Source: Phycisphaerales bacterium (lineage in GTDB: Bacteria > Planctomycetota > Phycisphaerae > Phycisphaerales > UBA1924). From it: a stretch of 64,000 nucleotides of DNA. A program made the position numbers and the translations under genes. The notes beneath the pieces are model-generated. The model did not search any database, was not told the origin of the DNA, and was given only the letters and a program-made list of their open reading frames with translations. Location of the stretch: NCBI GenBank assembly GCA_020427635.1, contig JAGQOH010000002.1:1-64000 (forward strand), read 5' to 3'. Shown piece by piece: positions 5,901 to 59,301 of this stretch (the first letter of the stretch is position 1; every line of letters starts with the position of its first letter).

Positions 5901-7514
5901 TCAGCGATTCACCCGGAACTGCCCGACAAGTGCGAGGAGGCCTTCGGCCTGGGCCGAGAGCTGGGCGGCGGCCCGAGCGGACTCGGAAGCGCCCCGCGAG
6001 GTCTCGGACGAGACCGCGTTGATTTCCTCGATGCTGCGCGAGATCTCCCCGGAAGCCTGGGATTGCTCTTGTGCCGCCGCTGCGATCTCGGTGACCATGG
6101 TGGCGACCCGTCGAGCACTATGGACGATCTGGTCGAGACTCTCGCCAGCGCGAACAGCGCTTTCGACGCCGTGACGCACGTGCTCGGTGCCCGCACTCAT
6201 GCGGTCCACTGCGCCCGAGGTCTCGGCCTGGATCGCCTGAATGGAGTGGGCAATCTCTTCGGTGGCCTTGGTCGTGCGATCTGCGAGCTTGCGGACCTCG
6301 TCGGCCACCACCGCAAAGCCACGACCATGCTCGCCGGCACGGGCCGCTTCGATCGCTGCGTTCAACGCCAGCAAGTTGGTCTGATCAGCAATGTCGTTGA
6401 TGACGGTGATGATCTCGCCGATCTGTTCGCCGCGCTTGCCGAGCTCTTGCACCGACTGCGCGGACGCCGAAACTGCATCGTTGATGTCGTTCATGCCTTC
6501 GATCGTCTGGCGGACGATCTGGCCACCCTCGGCAGCCGCGTCGCCAGAGCTGCGCGACTCGGTCGCGGTCTCGTTCGACTTGCGTGCAACCTCGTTGACG
6601 GACGCGGACATCTCTTCCACAGCCGAGGAGATCTGCGCGACTTGCGACGCCTGGCGTTGCATGCCGGAGGCCATTTCGTCACCGGAGGCTGCAATCTGGG
6701 TGGAGGCGGCGGCCACGCTTTGCGCCGCATCAAGGACCTCGACCATTGCGTCATGGACCCGCGTAATTGACGCGTTAAATGCGCGAGCGAGATCACCAAG
6801 CTCATCGCGGCCGTTGTACGTGGCTTGTGCGCGCAGGTCGCCCGCTGCAACCTGGGTGGTTGCGTTGCTCAGGTCGGCGATTGCGCGGGTGAGGCCTCGA
6901 ATGACCCACGTGCCAAGGGCAAGCACAAGGCACAGGCCCGGGACGCCAATGGCGAACATGAGGCGCTCGGCCGACGCGCCGACGCGCTGACCGTCAAGCC
7001 TGGCCGTCTCAGCCATCTGGGCAATGCGATCCGCCAAGCTTTCCATTTCTTCTTCAAGCGTACTGAACGCTTCAAGGAACTCAGGCATCATCGCCGCGGC
7101 GGCCGCCTTGTCAGCACGCGCGATCCCGCAGATCTTCTCCGCGGACGCGATGTAGTTCTCAAGTACGGGCTTCGTTGCTGTGAGTGCCTCGCGAACGTCT
7201 GGCGTGACGGTGTGCCGTTCGTTTTCCGCGATCATTGCGCGAAAGCTTGCCGCATGCTCGCGGACGTCGGCCATGACCGCGTCCTTGTCTGCTTGAGACT
7301 CGGCAAGCAGTGACGCGAGCGCGTCGCCGCGCAACGCATCATGCACCATGTCCGCAGCCATGTGGTTGCGCTGAACCTCACCAGCTTCGAGGATTCGGGC
7401 GGCGCTTTGGCGCATGTGGGAGTTGCCCCATTCGCCTGCAGCGCCCACCGCAACGGTGGCGATGGCCGCGCACCCGCCCAGTAACCAAAGCCGAGCCCGT
7501 ACCGTCAACTTCAT
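5901..7514 (-). CDS. methyl-accepting chemotaxis protein
   Basis: 537 residues from the ATG at 7514, chosen because AGGGGGAG lies five bases upstream; the frame stays open 54 bases further up but without homology or a better site. A transmembrane helix at about 8-26 is followed by a periplasmic four-helix-like sensor, a second helix near 186-206, a HAMP segment, and a full cytoplasmic signalling domain. The hairpin tip contains [20 protein letters not shown], which contacts CheA and CheW. It ends in LVGQFRVNR with no NWETF pentapeptide for CheR docking. Its last 270 or so residues are almost identical to those of the neighbouring receptor. The ligand is unknown. Confidence 0.93.
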
Positions 7515-7720: not shown

Positions 7721-9499
7721 TCAGCGGTTGACGCGGAATTGACCGACGAGCGAGAGGAGGCCCTCGGCTTGGGCTGAGAGCTGGGCGGCAGCCCGAGCAG
7801 ACTCGGAAGCGCCCCGCGAGGTCTCGGACGACACCGCGTTGATTTCCTCGATGCTGCGCGAGATCTCACTGGAGGCCTGGGACTGCTCCTCAGCGGCGGC
7901 AGCGATCTCGTTGACCATGCCGGCGACCTGGCGGGCGCTATGCACGATCTGATCGAGGCTCTCACCGGCCTTGGTGGCGCGGTCGACACCCTGCTTCACA
8001 TGCGAGGTGCCGGCTTCCATGCGCTGGACCGCATCGACGGTTTCCTGCTGGATCGCCTTGATGGACTGGGCGATCTCTTCGGTGGCCTTGGTCGTGCGAT
8101 CGGCGAGCTTGCGAACCTCGTCGGCCACAACCGCAAAGCCACGACCATGCTCGCCGGCACGGGCCGCTTCGATCGCGGCGTTGAGCGCCAAGAGGTTGGT
8201 CTGATCAGCGATGTCATTGATGACCGTGATAATCTCGCCGATCTGTTCGCCGCGCTTACCGAGCTCTTGCACAGATTGAGCACTGGAGGCCACAGCGTCG
8301 TTAATCGCGTTCATCCCTTCGATGGTCTGACGCACGATCTGGCCACCCTCGGCAGCCGCGTCGCCAGAAGCGCGTGACTCTGTCGCGGTCTCGTTCGATT
8401 TGCGAGCAACCTCGTTGACTGATGCGGACATTTCTTCGACCGCCGAGGAGATCTGCGCGACCTGCGACGACTGACGCTGCATGCCCGAGGCCATTTCCTC
8501 GCCTGAAGCGGCGATTTGGGTCGAAGCCGCCGCAACGCCCTCAGCAGAACCCACAACCTCGAGAATCACGTCATGCACCTTGGTGATGAACAAGTTGAAG
8601 TACTTGCCGAGCGTACCAAGCTCGTCGCCGCTCTTGACGTCGACGCGCTGGGTGAGATCGCCCTCACCCTCGGCGATGTCACGCACGCGGGCGGTCAGTG
8701 CCGCCATGGGCTTCTGGAAGACCCAACGGAGCACGAAGATGAAGAGGACCACCGAGCCGATGAAGAGCGGTGCGGAGAACATGAGGCCACTTGAAATGAA
8801 GCTCGCGACCTGGGCGTCCATGGCCTTGAGCGGCATCTTGACCTCGTAGGCGCCGTGCATGTAACCGACTTTCCAGTCCTCCATCGGGAAGCCCACGATG
8901 TCTTTGCCATCGCCGTCGGGATCGCCCGCGCTGCCGCGTGCGCCGTGGCAGGTGAGGCAGTCGTCGCTGAGCTTGATGGCTCGCATGTAGTGCAGGGTGT
9001 TGGTCTTTGTGTTGGTCCCAGAGATCCACTCGGCTCCGCCTTGCTCAACCTGGGTGGTGAGCTTGCGAAGAAGATCTTCGCTGAAGGAGCCGCGGTCCGG
9101 TTCATTTTCCTTGTTGCGGGCTTCGAAGGATGTAATGGTGAAATCAATGCCTTCGCGCGAAGCCGCCTGCTGACCTGCCGTCCAACCAGCGACGACGGGC
9201 ACTGCCTTGAAGATGGCGGTGTCACGATAGGAGCCGCCCTTGGCTTGCACGTCCTGCAGCTCCTTGGCCAAGCCGACCGAGTCGAAGGCGCCGGTTTTGT
9301 GCAGGCTTGCCACGTGGTTCTTGGTTTCATCGGCGAGTGCCGTGAACGCGGCGGCGCGTTCAACCATGGCTTGTGCCGCCGAGTCCTTGTATTTGTTCAC
9401 AAAGACCACATAGTTGACTGCGATCAACGTAACGAGCACGACCACCGTCAGCGCGATGATGCGTGTGCCCAACCCGAGGTTCTTGAACCAAGATGCCAT
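7721..9499 (-). CDS. chemoreceptor with heme c-type (Tll0287/DUF3365-like) sensor
   Basis: 592 residues from the ATG at 9499, which has GAGGGGAG about eight bases upstream; the frame is open further up but lacks a site. A first membrane helix (about 13-34) and a periplasmic domain carry CLTCH (Cys181, Cys184, His185), the covalent heme-binding motif of DUF3365/Tll0287-type sensors. A second helix (about 235-262), HAMP and a complete methyl-accepting signalling domain follow. Such receptors are thought to sense redox state or small gases through heme. There is no CheR-docking pentapeptide. The C-terminal half is nearly identical to the downstream receptor (5901-7514), which implies a tandem duplication. 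Confidence 0.92.
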
Positions 9500-12712: not shown

Positions 12713-14074
12713 CTAGCCCCGCACGGGGGTCAAGAGTTCATTCGGACGTTTGAGCAACTCGATGATCAGCGCAAGGCAACGAGCCGCATCGGCGCCGTCC
12801 ACGCTTCGATGATCGCAGGTGAGGCTCAGCGGGAGCAGCTTCGCGATGCGGATCGCGCCCTTGTCAGCAACAACGCCATCGCGCACACGTCCGGCAGCGA
12901 GGATCGCCACTTCGGGGTAGTTGATGATGGGTGTGGCATACCGCCCGGCATAGGAACCGACATTGCTGATCGTGAAGGTCGACCCCGAGAGCTTCTCGCG
13001 CGGAATCGAGCGATCGCGCACCATGCGGGCGATCTCACTGATATGCCGCGAAAGCTCGAGCACGCCCATCTCATCCGCGTTGTGGACGACCGGCACGCTC
13101 AGGCCTTGCTCGGTGTCGGCAGCGATGCCAAGATGGATCCGCGAATGACGAATGAGTTGCTCATTCTCGTCGTCCACATAGGCATTGAGCATCGGGAACT
13201 GTTTGATCGCCCGCATCACCGCAGCGGCGACGAACGGCAAGTAGCTCAAGGGTTCGCCGGAAGCCTTGCCAAGTGTCTTGCGCACTTCATCAACTTCGGT
13301 GACGTCGGCATCGTCCATGACGGAGAAATGCACGGCGCGATCGACAGACTCGCGCAGGCGGTTGGCGATGGTGCGCCGCACCCCGCGGATCGGAATGATC
13401 TGCGAGTCGCCTGACACATCGGGAATGAGCACCGGGGCGCGCTCGACGACGTGCTGTTGTGGCACGGTCGTGGCGAGTGGGCGTGCGGGCGCTGCGGGCT
13501 GTGGCGCAGGGGCGGGGCGCGCTGCTGGTGCTGGCGCGGGAGCGCCGCCCTGGGACGCCGCGCGGACATCGCGCTCAGTGACGCGTCCTGCCAGACCCGT
13601 ACCTCGAACCGAATCGATATCAACACCAAGGTCGCGTGCGATACGACGCACCGCGGGTGTCGCCAGCGCTTTGCCACCCTCCTTTGACACTGCACCGAGT
13701 GTGCCCGACACATTGCCAACCACGGTGCCGGCGTCTTCGCGATGGGCACTGCCATTTGTTTGCGCCGGCGCAGGGTCGCTGACGCGTGGCGCCGGAGCGC
13801 TCGCTGCACCGCCATCGGCACCCTCATACGTCCATGCCGGCTCGCCGACCTTCAGAATGTCGCCAACATTGCCAAATAGTTCCTTGATCGTGCCGGAGCG
13901 CGGCGATGGCACCTCAACGAGCGCCTTGTCCGTCTCCATCTCCGCAACGATGTCGTGTTCTTCAACCGTGTCGCCCGGACTCACCTTCCAGGCGATCAGC
14001 TCGGCTTCGTGTACGCCTTCGCCTAGGTCGGGCAGGATGAACACATTCGGATCACTGGAGACATGACCGGCCAT
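12713..14074 (-). CDS. dihydrolipoamide acyltransferase (E2) of a 2-oxoacid dehydrogenase
   Basis: 453 residues. The lipoyl domain (about 10-85) has [13 protein letters not shown] with the lipoylated lysine at 50. A Pro/Ala linker leads to the E3/E1-binding domain (about 135-172, [16 protein letters not shown]). A second Pro/Ala hinge follows, then the catalytic acyltransferase domain with DHRSVDG near the C-terminus (His422, Asp426). E2 moves the acyl group from lipoamide to CoA. The E1 genes lie 2.7 kb away on the same strand at 16784-19242, and no E3 gene is in the window. Pyruvate and branched-chain E2 proteins are hard to separate by eye; the leucine-degradation neighbours favour the branched-chain complex. 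Confidence 0.9.
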
Positions 14075-15033: not shown

Positions 15034-15636
15034 CTACTGCTCGTCCGGCACATACAAAATCAGATCGTGCTCGTCGGCAATGCGCTGGAACTCTTCCGGG
15101 CTTAGCGGCTTCGGCGCTTGCCCGGGCGGGGCAGCGATCATGCGGAAGAAGCTCATCAGGCCTTCGTCGTCGTTTGGCACGGTCACAAATACGAGCGCCA
15201 GTGGTGTCGCGCCCGTGTTACGGATCGCGTGCCACACGCCGGGCGGGTTGTACCAGACATAGCCCGACGTCACGGGCATGGTTTGTTCGTTACCGTGGAG
15301 GTTCAGCCCGACCACATCGCCCTGGCCCGAGATGATGTAGGCAAACTCTTCGGTCTTGTCGTGGCGATGCATGGGCAGCGCACCGCCAACACTGAGCGTG
15401 TATTTCGCCATGCTGGCCCGCGCGTGCGGATGCGTGACGTGATCGACATAGATCTGCATCTCGCCGCCCGTGCCGAGGCTGTCTCTGCTTTCAGGAAAGA
15501 CCCAGAGAGTCTCGCCGGCGTTCGGCGCCATGATGATCGGTGCGTGCGAATGTGAATGCGAATGTGCGTGCTCGCTCGCGCAGCCGGCGACACACACGGC
15601 TGTTGCAGCGGCGAGGCAGATGGTGGAGAGGTTCAT
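15034..15636 (-). CDS. lipoprotein with His-rich segment and cupin domain
   Basis: 200 residues from the ATG at 15636. The signal peptide ends in a lipobox (AVCVAGC, Cys at about 18), so the mature protein should be lipid-anchored. A run of alternating His follows immediately (HAHSHSHSHA). The body is a cupin: YTLSVGGALPMHRHDKTEEF carries the HxH and Glu ligands, and WYNPPGVWHAIRNTG carries the second His motif. The His tract may bind or buffer Zn, Ni or Cu next to the metal site. Function unknown. Convergent with the acetyltransferase gene. Confidence 0.8.
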   Translation of the reverse strand: MNLSTICLAAATAVCVAGCASEHAHSHSHSHAPIIMAPNAGETLWVFPESRDSLGTGGEMQIYVDHVTHPHARASMAKYTLSVGGALPMHRHDKTEEFAYIISGQGDVVGLNLHGNEQTMPVTSGYVWYNPPGVWHAIRNTGATPLALVFVTVPNDDEGLMSFFRMIAAPPGQAPKPLSPEEFQRIADEHDLILYVPDEQ

Positions 15637-15680
15637 GGGGGGATGGTAGGGGATGGAAGAAGCCGATGGGACTGGCACAT

Positions 15681-15736
15681 TCCTACTCCCTCTCCCCGCT
15701 TGCGGGGAGAGGGTGGCGCTTCGCCGGGTGAGGGGC
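15681..15736 (+). repeat. dispersed repeat family 1, copy A
   Basis: Core CTCCCTCTCCCCGC-TT-GCGGGGAGAGGG, then TGGCG-CTTCGCC, then GGGTGAGGGGC. The last C of this copy is the first base of the antisense stop codon of the next gene (15736). Three other copies were found (16652-16715 inverted, 24681-24744, 53097-53160). They resemble REP-type palindromic units. Confidence 0.85.
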
Positions 15737-16647
15737 TAGTCGATGAACTCATCGACGTCGAAGCTTGCGCAGCCAAAGGGTGGCGCGAGTTGTGGCAACG
15801 CTTCAAGCGCTTTGCGTTGCAGATCACCTGGATACAAGTTATTGCGGATGCGCATCTTTGCGAGGCCGGGCTGCTCCCAAGCGCGAGATGTTCTCGGGTC
15901 GATTTTTCCACCCAACTCCTCAGCAGCGGACACAACGAGTTCTGTGGCAAGCTTCTTGTCGATGATGGTCGTGAGTACTGCACGCTTCGAATCTAGGTCG
16001 TAGGTGCCAACCTCAAGCGAGTACGCGGCGCATGCCACGACCCAGCGCAAGTCCGCCGGAAGTTGCTTGACTTCCTCCAGTACCGACTCGCTGTCGATGG
16101 CCGCGCTCTCGGGGATATCCAAGCTTGATATGTATTGCGGCATGTGCAGGGCATAGACCGAATCAGTTCTTGCCCTGTAAAGCCGCCACACCCACACGGT
16201 TACGAACGTGTCAGGATCAGCCTCTCCAATCAGTGCTTCGAACTCAGCAACGTCGTGTGGCACAACGCCAAACCAAGCGTGATAGATGTTGCTGAGTTGT
16301 CCGGCGATGGACTGTCGTTTGAAGGCATAGGTGTTGTGTACTCCGTTGACATCCGATGACGGTATCGACATGCGTGCGTCGTCGAGCAGCGCATGCAGTT
16401 CAAGCAACCGCGCAATGTCGCCGCGTTGATCGAGAACGAAGAGTGCCAGGCCTCGCTCCTCTGCAGTGCCGTTCTCAAGCATCTGGTTGAGTTGGTCGTC
16501 TTCGATAGTGCAGGCTTCAGCAAGAATTGGCCGCTCGTCAACTGGCACGCTTTGCCACTGTGCAAGTGCGCCGCGCGGCAACGCCCAAGGAAACTCTACG
16601 TTCGCTGAACAAAGGGCGAGGCTCGCAACGATCGGCGCAATGTTCAT
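15736..16647 (-). CDS. orphan exported protein bounded by inverted repeats
   Basis: 303 residues. A short signal-like N-terminus (MNIAPIVASLALCSANVEF) is followed by a soluble, mostly helical protein with many acidic residues and no motif I recognise (no HEAT, TPR or enzymatic signature that I trust). It ends FGCASFDVDEFID. The gene is enclosed by family 1 repeats in opposite orientation: copy A touches its stop codon, and copy B ends four bases before its start codon and supplies a GTGAGGGG sequence at the right distance for a ribosome binding site. Base composition is a little lower in GC than its neighbours. The arrangement suggests a transferred or mobilised cassette. Confidence 0.65.
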   Translation of the reverse strand: MNIAPIVASLALCSANVEFPWALPRGALAQWQSVPVDERPILAEACTIEDDQLNQMLENGTAEERGLALFVLDQRGDIARLLELHALLDDARMSIPSSDVNGVHNTYAFKRQSIAGQLSNIYHAWFGVVPHDVAEFEALIGEADPDTFVTVWVWRLYRARTDSVYALHMPQYISSLDIPESAAIDSESVLEEVKQLPADLRWVVACAAYSLEVGTYDLDSKRAVLTTIIDKKLATELVVSAAEELGGKIDPRTSRAWEQPGLAKMRIRNNLYPGDLQRKALEALPQLAPPFGCASFDVDEFID

Positions 16648-16651
16648 CAGT

Positions 16652-16715
16652 CACCCCTCACCCGACTCGCCTTTGGCGAGCCACCCTCTCCCCGCATGCG
16701 GGGCGAGGGAGCAAG
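16652..16715 (-). repeat. dispersed repeat family 1, copy B (inverted)
   Basis: Reverse complement of the family 1 unit: the palindrome CTCTCCCCGC-AT-GCGGGGCGAG, plus a small inner stem ACTCGCC-TTT-GGCGAG, plus CCCCTCACCCG. Its GTGAGGGG end faces the start codon of the orphan gene at 16647. Confidence 0.85.
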
Positions 16716-16783
16716 AACGTGGCCTTCGCAGACTCAGACCACGGCACCCGGACCCATTGCCCACTGCCCATTGACCATTGCCC

Positions 16784-17758
16784 CTAGTACCCCGCACACG
16801 CCATGACACCCTCGCCGATGCGCTTCGCATCCGGCAGGTACTGCATCTCCAGCTTGTAGTACGGCATCACGGTGTCAAAGCCGGTCACGCGCTGGATCGG
16901 CGCTTGCAAGCGCAGGAAGCAATGTTCCTGAATCGCGGTCGCGATCTCGGCGGCCATGGAGCCGGTCTTCGGCGCTTCGCAGGCGATCACGCACCGCCCG
17001 GTCTTGTTGACCGATTCGACAATCGTGTCGAGGTCATAGGGATAAATCGTGCGCAGGTCGATCAGCTCGACCGACAAATCCTCGGGCAAATTGTCCATCG
17101 CTTCGATGCACTGCAACGTCGTCGCGCCCCAGGTGATGAGCGTGAGGTCGGAGCCCTCTTCGACGATGCGGGCCTTGCCAATCTCGACGGTGTATTCGTC
17201 TTCCGGCACCTCCTGGCGGAACGCACGGTAAATCCGCTTCGGCTCGAAATAGACCACCGGGTCAGGATCGCGAATCGCGCTGATGAGCAGCCCCTTGGCG
17301 TCGTAGGGATTCGATGGCATGACGACCTTCAAGCCCGGCGTGTGCGCATAGATCACTTCGGGTGAATCGGAGTGCAATTCGGGGGCGTGAATACCACCCC
17401 CAACGGGAACGCGCACCGTGAGCGGAATCGTCACCGCGCCGCGCGAACGTGTGCGATAGCGTGCCGCGTGGTTGGTCAGCTGGTCATAGGCGGGCCCGAG
17501 GAAGCCTTCGAACTGAATCTCTGCGATGGGGCGGAGGCCACCCATGGCGAGTCCAATCGCGCTGCCCATGATGCCCGACTCAGCAAGCGGCGTATCGACG
17601 ACGCGGTCCTCACCAAAGCGTTGCTGCAGGCCCTCGGTGACGCGGAACACGCCGCCATTCTTGCCGACGTCTTCGCCAAGAATGAGCACGCGCTCGTCGG
17701 ATTCCATCTCTTGCGTGAGCGCGAGGTTGATTGCCTGGACGAGTGTGAGTTCAGCCAT
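16784..17758 (-). CDS. 2-oxoacid dehydrogenase E1 component, beta subunit
   Basis: 324 residues, normal length for PdhB/BkdB. Seen: the N-terminal MAELTLVQAINLALTQEM, the catalytic-type region LGEDVGKNGGVFRVTEGL, FGEDRVVDTPLAESGIMGSA and AEIQFEGFLGPAYDQL, and the C-terminal transketolase-like domain with PYYKLEMQYLPD. With E1 alpha it decarboxylates a 2-oxoacid using thiamine diphosphate and reductively acylates E2. GGAGC lies 8 bases before the ATG. It is separated from E1 alpha by an unrelated small gene. Pyruvate versus branched-chain specificity is not decided. Confidence 0.92.
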   Translation of the reverse strand: MAELTLVQAINLALTQEMESDERVLILGEDVGKNGGVFRVTEGLQQRFGEDRVVDTPLAESGIMGSAIGLAMGGLRPIAEIQFEGFLGPAYDQLTNHAARYRTRSRGAVTIPLTVRVPVGGGIHAPELHSDSPEVIYAHTPGLKVVMPSNPYDAKGLLISAIRDPDPVVYFEPKRIYRAFRQEVPEDEYTVEIGKARIVEEGSDLTLITWGATTLQCIEAMDNLPEDLSVELIDLRTIYPYDLDTIVESVNKTGRCVIACEAPKTGSMAAEIATAIQEHCFLRLQAPIQRVTGFDTVMPYYKLEMQYLPDAKRIGEGVMACAGY

Positions 17759-23148: not shown

Positions 23149-23174
23149 GATGGCAGGATAGCGGTTGGCGGTTT

Positions 23175-23256
23175 GGGTGCCCGGGCTTGCTTGTCAAGCC
23201 CGGTCTGAGCGATGTGCGGTCTTGCAGACCCGGTTTGCAAGCAAACCGGGGCACCC
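23175..23256. repeat. dispersed repeat family 2, double-hairpin copy
   Basis: Outer stem GGGTGCCC (23175-23182) with GGGCACCC (23249-23256) encloses two inner hairpins: GGGCTTG-CTTGT-CAAGCCC (23183-23201) and CCCGGTTTGC-AA-GCAAACCGGG (23229-23250). The first inner hairpin matches the core of the other family 2 copies. Confidence 0.8.
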
Positions 23257-23502: not shown

Positions 23503-23560
23503 CAAGCCCCAAGCGCAAGCGTCGGGTGGCCCGACTTGCTAGTCAAGTCGGGTTTGTCAC
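23503..23560 (+). repeat. dispersed repeat family 2, single copy
   Basis: AAGCCCCAAGCGCAAGCG, TCGGGTGG, then the hairpin CCCGACTTG-CTAGT-CAAGTCGGG (23529-23551), then TTTGTC. The same order recurs at 32877-32935. Confidence 0.85.
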
Positions 23561-23897: not shown

Positions 23898-25654
23898 TTT
23901 CCACTTCGTCTGTTCATCTCTGCGTCTTTTCGTCTCTCCATAGCCACCTGCTCCTCACCACCGACAAGTCCCAACGAAACCTCCAGCGCCCGCTCCATCC
24001 ACGCATCAACATCATCCGCCGCGATTTCGTTCAGCCACGCCTTCGTCGTCGCAAATGCCTGGGGCGGCTTGGCCGCAAATTCCTGTGCACGAAGTTGCGC
24101 CCGGGGCGTGACATCCTCCGGCAGTTGCACCACCTGATGCACAAGCCCGATCTGCCGAGCTTCCGCCGCATCAATCAACTTCGGCTCAAGCAGACGCGTG
24201 CGTGCGGGCCCGCCCGCAGTCATTGCGCGTAACGTCGGGGCGCTCACCGCAGGTGAAATGCCAAGCAGCGTCACGGGATACCCGAACTTCGCCACCTCAT
24301 CCGCCACTACGAAGTCAGCGCCGCCAAGCAACGCACAACCGCCCGCAACCGCTGCGCCCTGCACGCCGACAACCACCGCCTTGGGTGCCGCCCGCATCGC
24401 GCGAACGGCGGCGCTGAGTCCTTTGAGCAATGCAGGGAGCGCTTCGGGATCACTGTGACAAACGTCAAGATCAAACCCAGCGCAGAACGATTTGCCCTCG
24501 CCGCGCAGCACGATCGCATGGACCGAGTCGTCGTGCGCGAGTTCGTCAATGGCGGTGATGATTGCATCGAGCATCGCCGGTGTGAGCGCATTGCGCTTCT
24601 CGGGCCGATCGAGCACGACTTCGCCAAATGACGCCGCAACGCCCGGCGAGCCCGCCGTATGCCGCACGATGCGCACAGGATCTTGCTCCTTCGCCCCGCT
24701 TGCGGGGAGTGGTTGGTCCGCCGAAGGCAGATCGGGTGAGGGGCGTCTGTTCCTCAATTGAACTGCGATCGTCTCAGTCTCAGCCAAACGCTCCCGATCC
24801 ACACCTGTCGCAAATCCTTCGCGCTCAATCGTCTCAACTAACAGCTCCGTCGCGATGTTGCCCGGCGCGCGCTTGCCCACAGCGCTCGTGGCATATGGAC
24901 ACCCGCCCAGCCCGCCCGCCGAGCCATCGAAACTGCGCACGCCGGCGTGGAGCGCCGCGCGCACGCAGTCCGCTGCCCGCCCGTAGGTGTCATGCAAGTG
25001 AATCGTCAGCTGTTTGATCTCCTCGGCTGAGAACGCTGCCAGAAGCGCCGCGATGTCCGCCGGATGCGCCACACCGATCGTGTCGCCCAGGTCGATATCC
25101 ACCTTGCCGCGCGCCGCTTGTGGGAAGATTGCCAACACATCATCGACGACCTTGCGCACTTGTAGCGGCGCAATCGCCCCCTCGAACGGGCACGCCACCG
25201 CGCACGACACATACACCCGGATCGGCATCCCGGCTTCAATCGCTCGCGGCACGATCGGACGAAACCGCTCAATGCTTTCGGCGATCGTCGCGTTGATGTT
25301 CTTGCGGTTGAAGGACTCCGATGCCGCGGTGAACAGCGCGATCTTCAGCGGCAGCCCGCCCTGGTGCACTTCCAGTGCGCGCTCGAATCCTTTCTCGTTT
25401 GGCACGAGCGCGGAGATGAGCGGGGAACTGGGGCGAGCTGCAAGCAGGCGCCGGACGCCCGCCAACACCTCAGCGGCATCGCCGAGCTGCGGCACCCACG
25501 CCGGGCTCACGAAGCTCGTCGCTTCAATCTCCGCCAGGTTGCAGGCGAGCAGCATGTCGATCAGTCGGACTTTGTCCGCAGCAGAAATCACGCCCGGTTC
25601 GTTCTGCAAACCGTCGCGCGGAGCAACATCGCAGATGCGCACATGCTTTGTCAT
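23894..25654 (-). CDS. fused HMG-CoA lyase and enoyl-CoA (methylglutaconyl-CoA?) hydratase
   Basis: 586 residues. Residues 1-295 are a complete HMG-CoA lyase: APRDGLQNE at the N-terminus, HDTYGRA metal-binding, and the active-site signature GGLGGCPYA. Residues about 329-586 are a complete crotonase: SFCAGFDLDVC and GAAVAGGCALLGGADFV. Together they could carry out two consecutive leucine-degradation steps, hydration of 3-methylglutaconyl-CoA and cleavage of HMG-CoA to acetoacetate and acetyl-CoA. The linker (about 303-324) is encoded by a family 1 repeat. Just after it a GTG preceded by AAGGAG could start the hydratase separately. No frame break is seen. Confidence 0.88.
   Translation of the reverse strand: MTKHVRICDVAPRDGLQNEPGVISAADKVRLIDMLLACNLAEIEATSFVSPAWVPQLGDAAEVLAGVRRLLAARPSSPLISALVPNEKGFERALEVHQGGLPLKIALFTAASESFNRKNINATIAESIERFRPIVPRAIEAGMPIRVYVSCAVACPFEGAIAPLQVRKVVDDVLAIFPQAARGKVDIDLGDTIGVAHPADIAALLAAFSAEEIKQLTIHLHDTYGRAADCVRAALHAGVRSFDGSAGGLGGCPYATSAVGKRAPGNIATELLVETIEREGFATGVDRERLAETETIAVQLRNRRPSPDLPSADQPLPASGAKEQDPVRIVRHTAGSPGVAASFGEVVLDRPEKRNALTPAMLDAIITAIDELAHDDSVHAIVLRGEGKSFCAGFDLDVCHSDPEALPALLKGLSAAVRAMRAAPKAVVVGVQGAAVAGGCALLGGADFVVADEVAKFGYPVTLLGISPAVSAPTLRAMTAGGPARTRLLEPKLIDAAEARQIGLVHQVVQLPEDVTPRAQLRAQEFAAKPPQAFATTKAWLNEIAADDVDAWMERALEVSLGLVGGEEQVAMERRKDAEMNRRSGK
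24681..24744 (+). repeat. dispersed repeat family 1, copy C, inside a coding region
   Basis: TTGCTCC-TTCGCCCCGC-TT-GCGGGGAG, then GGTCCGCCGAAGG and GGGTGAGGGGC. It lies within the fused lyase/hydratase gene and encodes its inter-domain linker in frame. Confidence 0.8.
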
Positions 25655-32876: not shown

Positions 32877-32935
32877 AGCCCCAAGCGCAAGTGCGTCGGG
32901 TGGCCCGACTTGCTTGTCAAGTCGGGTTTGTCTTG
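32877..32935 (+). repeat. dispersed repeat family 2, single copy
   Basis: AGCCCCAAGCGCAAG, GCGTCGGGTGG, then CCCGACTTG-CTTGT-CAAGTCGGG (32904-32926) and TTTGTCTTG. Almost identical to 23503-23560. On the minus strand it would form the C-terminal end of the frameshifted zinc-ribbon gene. Confidence 0.85.
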
Positions 32936-53096: not shown

Positions 53097-53160
53097 TTCC
53101 TGCTCCCTCGCCCCGCGCGCGGGGAGAGGGTGCCGAGCAACGCGAGGCGGGTGAGGGGCC
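53097..53160 (+). repeat. dispersed repeat family 1, copy D
   Basis: TTCCTGCTCCCTCGCCCCGC-GC-GCGGGGAGAGGG, then an imperfect middle part, then GGGTGAGGGG. It fills the space between the nuoA stop codon (53096) and the MOSC gene start (53162) with about one spare base on each side. Its GAGGGG end is the only ribosome-binding-like sequence before that start. Confidence 0.85.
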
Positions 53161-58962: not shown

Positions 58963-59142
58963 GCTGCCCTGTGTCCGCCTCTGATCGGCGCGCTCAACAT
59001 CCCGCCGCGAATCGAGAACCACGCGCGGACCAGGCCCGGGCCCATGCGGTCAGGGGAGATCGCCCGCAGCAACCATGCGTTGGTGGGCAAAGGCAGTGGC
59101 GTGCGCCGACCGCGTGGGTCACTCTCTATTCACGGCGGGTGC

Positions 59143-59165
59143 CCCGACTTGCTTGCCAAGTCGGA
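59143..59165 (+). repeat. dispersed repeat family 2, partial copy
   Basis: GGGTG precedes CCCGACTTG-CTTGC-CAAGTCGGA, then TTTGTCTGG. The hairpin core is kept but the AAGCCCCAAGCGCAAG left arm is missing. Confidence 0.7.
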
Positions 59166-59301
59166 TTTGTCTGGCCGGCATTGTCATGTCCATCTCCGAG
59201 CCCCAGCGGCGATATGACCCTTCCATCGGCCCGACCGCCCGGGAAGCAAGTAGTTCCCACACTTTGCGGAATCCGTGCGCGCGGTCGTACTCTCTTTGCC
59301 A

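Follow-up and report, generated by a model that had tools for sequence, protein, structure and literature searches.

The 303-aa open reading frame (ORF) at 15736..16647 (minus strand) of the window, the 64,000 nt stretch of Phycisphaerales DNA analysed here, lies between two inverted copies of a dispersed repeat, with the tails of both copies directed into the gene. The same bracket was found around DUF559 nuclease genes in the genome of the window (G000) and in a sister species of the same genus (G001). The lasting result of the study is this repeat bracket around DUF559, which resembles a REPtron with a different nuclease. We consider it probable that the copies bordering the ORF belong to a family of REP-like mosaic elements with a dedicated gene for a small DUF559 (Vsr/homing-type) endonuclease in the place of RAYT, and that the bracket around the window gene arose from separate arrivals of two copies.

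Repeat copy A (15677..15735, plus strand) comprises a first hairpin, CCCTCTCCCCGC/GCGGGGAGAGGG, a second hairpin, GGCGCTTCGCC, which is the commonest subtype, and a GGGTGAGGGG tail that abuts the ORF stop codon. The GAGGGG of copy A ends at 15735 and is immediately followed by CTA, the antisense TAG stop, at 15736-15738. Repeat copy B (16649..16720, minus strand) contains hairpin 1, a second hairpin CTCGCC-AAA-GGCGAG and a GGGTGAGGGG tail that ends six bases before the ORF ATG (16645-16647). The two copies are in opposite orientation, with 51-nt arms that are 82% complementary and 962 nt apart. In gene direction copy B reads ...CGGGTGAGGGGTGACTG-ATG into the ORF, and an in-frame TGA is present just 5' of the start (TGA CTG ATG). 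Since the GAGGGG in the tail of copy B was the sole SD-like motif ahead of the ORF, copy B is the apparent source of its Shine-Dalgarno sequence. The original prediction had placed copy A on the antisense stop codon and copy B just before the gene start in opposite orientation, supplying the apparent ribosome binding site; all of this was borne out, as was the lower GC of the gene (0.566, vs 0.624 for the whole window and 0.62-0.64 for the neighbours). In a generic element scan of the 57 window genes, no gene other than the 303-aa ORF was flanked on both sides by tail-inward elements. The prediction had further described gene and repeats as a neat inverted-repeat cassette. The bracket itself stood, but the second hairpins of A and B differ in sequence and represent different subtypes, so that the two copies do not constitute matching terminal repeats.

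A search profile constructed from copies A and B gave 52 matches, mostly intergenic, in stretches fetched from G000 around known copies, a survey in which brackets elsewhere may be missed; the predicted dispersed nature of the repeats was thus confirmed. Because both border copies belong to this family, with E-values of 6e-21 and 3e-15, they are not chance matches. Two further copies were detected by the profile in the window, at 24679..24748 and 53097..53159 (both plus strand). In the element, TTCTTGCTCCCTCKCCCCGC-NN-GCGGGGAGAGGGTGG is followed by a variable stem-loop and this in turn by CGGGTGAGGGGC, i.e. a conserved C/G hairpin, a second pairing hairpin of varying sequence and the G-rich tail. 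Among 45 readable copies 24 different middle segments were found; their perfect stems averaged 5.1 bp, vs 3.0 bp (maximum 3.5) after shuffling. From the stems retained across these variants we concluded that the second hairpin is preserved even as its sequence varies. The 34-nt outer motif of copy B (16718..16751, minus strand) recurs beside other copies in the genome too, as in bacterial mosaic elements (BIME-like). A solitary copy in G001 (L191) was missing from the orthologous gap of G000 (L070), which indicates that repeat copies come and go.

As a short palindrome in many intergenic copies, the repeat is a REP-like element. CGTC-tagged REPs, a large superfamily without a partner enzyme in a 2013 survey, are described with 8-9 bp stems starting A-T (PMC3733652); the element shares with them the position of a REP superfamily for which a dedicated enzyme had not been found (PMC3733652), but it lacks that combination of CGTC tag and stem, its own stems being C/G-rich and of CCCTCKCCCCGC type. 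Nor do A and B form a REPIN, i.e. two inverted REPs with a short spacer, given the distance between their arms. An Rfam search returned nothing, and a literature search with the exact sequences returned only matches that seemed unrelated by title.

In the stretches of G000, inward-tail brackets enclosed three genes, namely the window gene and two DUF559 (PF04480) genes, and both DUF559 genes of G001 were likewise bracketed by inward-tail copies. Inverted inward-tail copies around a DUF559 gene thus occur in this repeat family; the window gene itself is not a nuclease. We compared 49 DUF559 genes from 101 genomes of relatives with 15 E1-beta genes as controls. An inverted match between the upstream and downstream flanks, above 100 dinucleotide shuffles, was found for 35/49 DUF559 genes vs 0/15 controls, and a scan for the C/G hairpin with G-rich tail detected inward elements on both sides of 27/49 DUF559 genes vs 0/165 control genes, and elements on either side of 41/49 vs 5/165. 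Outward elements on both sides were also frequent in the generic scan (13/49), because copies are grouped and the scan hairpin is palindromic and in places readable both ways. DUF559 was present in 16 of the 19 genomes with two or more repeats, vs 16 of the 82 others (Fisher p=2e-7, with counts assembled by hand from the genome survey tables). The absence of a significant inverted pair in 14/49 DUF559 genes, and the three repeat-bearing genomes with no strong DUF559 match (G080, G068 and G270), count against DUF559 as the dedicated gene. The nearest DUF559 neighbour in another genome had the same repeat type in 25/35 cases (permutation mean 11.9; reached in 0/2000 permutations), a covariation that could have its source in shared ancestry.

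The pattern was found outside the phylum as well. In DUF559 loci of other phyla, taken from a plasmid collection, 6/16 had significant inverted repeats and several more had a single element at the start codon; the inverted-repeat pattern was seen in alphaproteobacteria, cyanobacteria and Deinococcus. On a Sphingomonas plasmid (L206) a DUF559 gene with a hairpin repeat ahead of it was situated between NAD(P) transhydrogenase subunit genes. The profile of these DUF559 proteins matched the endonuclease-like structure 3hrl and the mobile-intron nuclease 3r3p. One DUF559 unit (L066/L185 and L183) was located at an orthologous place in G000 and G001 with conserved flanks; at least one unit is therefore old and vertically inherited, not recently mobile, a point against the explanation that we favour. 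A link between DUF559 and repeats was not found in the searchable literature, which leaves subscription papers and preprints outside.

The original prediction had called the window gene an orphan with no recognised family. The latter held, as the ORF had no match in Pfam, NCBIfam or Rfam, but distant relatives were found, in about 1-2% of related genomes. They were present in 3/61, 5/400, 6/397 and 4/163 genomes of samples drawn from relatives, order, class and family, respectively; the four samples overlap and each includes the query genome itself. The relative in G383 shared 37% identity over query residues 13-265. The ORF is predicted to be mostly helical with a weak N-terminal signal-like segment, and its predicted fold (mean pLDDT 77) had no PDB match at E<=0.001. 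The best structural matches were to 14-3-3 proteins, and these were set aside as E was above 0.1 and TM low. Searching the PDB by sequence with the ORF family gave nothing meaningful, and scans with protein P0001 and with a DUF559 protein for named relatives confirmed none.

The usual position of the homologues is immediately or shortly downstream of a transglutaminase-like gene, as seen in G051, G383, G590, G683, G636 and G064. In this rare two-gene module (L092, L093, L010, L053, L097 and L098) the gene for a transglutaminase-like protein precedes a member of the helical family to which the window ORF belongs. In G064 four or more tandem paralogues of the ORF are present beside the transglutaminase-like gene, which resembles an enzyme with a multiplying partner. 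No match to the transglutaminase-like gene was found in G000. A search for the gene with the same repeat borders at other loci or in other genomes had been suggested along with the prediction; in a profile search of fetched stretches the repeat family was absent around the homologues in G383, G051, G064, G590, G683, G636 and G027. Relatives keeping the gene without repeats, which the prediction had named as evidence against it if found at the same locus, do exist, but at other loci. As the homologues sit by a transglutaminase-like gene and without the repeat, we concluded that the window gene is not repeat-specific; judged by sequence it appears to be a stray, distant member of the rare transglutaminase-linked module. 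That no relative of it is bordered by these repeats counts against our favoured explanation.

Downstream of the ORF lies a cupin-domain gene (15034..15678, minus strand), whose annotated GTG start is reached by the head of copy A and for which a lipoprotein start at 15636 is likelier. Upstream, with 63 bp between it and the copy B head, lies a 2-oxoacid dehydrogenase E1-beta gene (16784..17758, minus strand). The E2 gene (12713..14074, minus strand) forms the other edge of the gap. In G012 about 83 bp separate E1-beta from E2, in G001 the gap holds toxin-antitoxin-like genes and genes of unidentified family, and in G017 it holds another gene set; the window gene and the cupin gene were absent from the gap in all three. 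The window gene is thus accessory, and the gap that it occupies between two catabolic genes is variable. For the empty-site comparison no clean empty site could be defined, because the gap is variable and lacks a matching cupin neighbour in the relatives. With its toxin-antitoxin-like genes, the G001 gap (L032 3600-5245) resembles an integration hotspot in this clade. Elsewhere in the window, 5901-6456 and 7721-8276, which lie 1820 nt apart, share 84-86% identity across about 550 nt; this long direct repeat probably represents duplicated genes.

How the bracket around the window gene arose can be read in two ways. With somewhat better than an even chance it is a coincidence, in which repeats settle in gaps and happen to occupy both gaps of one gene tail-inward, with no functional link between gene and repeat. 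When 45 elements were randomly placed in gaps of 50 bp or more, at the gene spacing of the window, 0.11-0.14 inward brackets, the same number of outward brackets and 0.20-0.27 direct brackets were obtained per genome. The single inward bracket in G000 is therefore unremarkable by itself, and real copies cluster clearly more than in this model. A chance origin also agrees with the many copies that adjoin stop codons of ordinary genes and with the repeat-free relatives of the window gene, but it does not account well for the exact abutment at both gene ends, the identical architecture of the DUF559 units, or the three further inward brackets in G001, which enclose two beta-helix genes and one pair of small ORFs. 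The beta-helix repeat genes are at L188 6249-7889 and L190 1354-3265, and related beta-helix sequences are near copies in G000 too (L081 and L061). Alternatively, and with a modest chance, the window gene was caught as a passenger by a pair of inward repeats and travels together with them, with the DUF559 nucleases of the genome acting in trans. Architecture and junctions would then be the same as in the DUF559 units, as observed, and accessory non-nuclease cargo is held by the other inward brackets, i.e. those of G001 and one around a WG-repeat gene in G080. The absence of the window gene from G001, where no homologue was found, and its low GC fit as well. Among the gene-distance brackets in the lists examined, five were inward with non-nuclease cargo, none outward and about ten direct; the five-to-nil excess is suggestive of passenger capture, but p=0.03 one-sided at best, for a set not defined in advance, and the direct pairs weaken it. 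The different subtypes of A and B also speak against a passenger, though the DUF559 units of G000 have mismatched subtypes as well, and neither a second copy nor an empty site was recovered. The predicted cassette is thus partly supported: it is possibly mobile, but a single such bracket in a genome is close to what chance would give.

Two other readings concern the repeats themselves. They may be host bidirectional terminators or mRNA stabilisers into which nuclease genes inserted, so that the DUF559 link would not reflect repeat mobilisation. The strong predicted hairpins (-36.7 and -37.6 kcal/mol) and the positions after stop codons agree with this, but it does not readily explain why the repeats on either side of the nucleases are inverted and face inward, or why DUF559 covaries with repeat type, and we regard it as unlikely. 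A RAYT-type transposase, for which a check of the genome had been suggested along with the prediction, was found: a RAYT-like Y1 transposase (Y1_Tnp) gene is present at C40:35083-35328 (L048). This gene, however, is not bracketed by the A/B repeat and sits among another palindromic repeat, CCCGGCTTG..CAAGCCGGG, and RAYT as partner of the A/B repeat was rejected on the grounds that its own repeats differ. With the GTAG tag also absent from the element sequences of the A/B family, it is very improbable that A and B are RAYT-mobilised GTAG REPs. Two REP systems coexist in G000, and the RAYT-associated family is found in the window too, at 23170-23209, 23519-23558, 32893-32932 and 59132-59171.

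In the explanation that we favour, with DUF559 as the dedicated gene, the home unit of the element would be [head-hairpins-tail> DUF559 <tail-hairpins-head]. The nuclease may introduce nicks or breaks at, or close to, the hairpin repeats or a target; single repeats and whole units could then spread through repair or through recombination among dispersed copies, in the way proposed for RAYT and GTAG REPs. In the window, the place of the nuclease within a bracket of this kind is taken by the 303-aa ORF. Most likely two copies reached the short gaps beside it separately and would now serve as a terminator-like 3' end and a ribosome-binding 5' end; in principle, such a bracket could also be open to mobilisation as a passenger.

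GTAG-superfamily REPs with RAYT transposases are known as REPtrons (PMC3733652, PMC2817692). The present element resembles them as a short dispersed intergenic palindrome with mosaic groups and enrichment after stop codons, and in having one dedicated nuclease gene bracketed by repeats. It differs in having no GTAG tag, in its two consecutive hairpins, the second of which is variable, and in its bracketed gene, which encodes a DUF559 Vsr-like nuclease and not a Y1 HUH transposase. By profile the nucleases belong to the same family as 3r3p and Caulobacter VsrA, a DUF559 protein needed for the DNA-damage response on removal of its partner methyltransferase (PMC12907096); unlike Vsr/DUF559 nucleases as described in the searchable literature, they are linked here to dispersed repeats. 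With a small repeat in inverted orientation at either end of a gene, the arrangement also recalls MITE-bounded or composite passenger cassettes, but the repeats here are of mismatched subtypes.

Many bacterial genomes are strewn with C/G-rich palindromic repeats for which no enzyme is known. The inward bracket around DUF559 nucleases, which is consistent, points to a candidate enzyme and a substrate, both open to test, and suggests what a family that is still called a 'domain of unknown function' might do. It is rather doubtful that DUF559 Vsr-like nucleases are dedicated mobilisers of a widespread, cross-phylum class of C/G-rich double-hairpin REPs whose inward brackets carry accessory genes as passengers. 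If passenger genes do move in such brackets, these would constitute a small gene-capture route independent of transposases and integrons.
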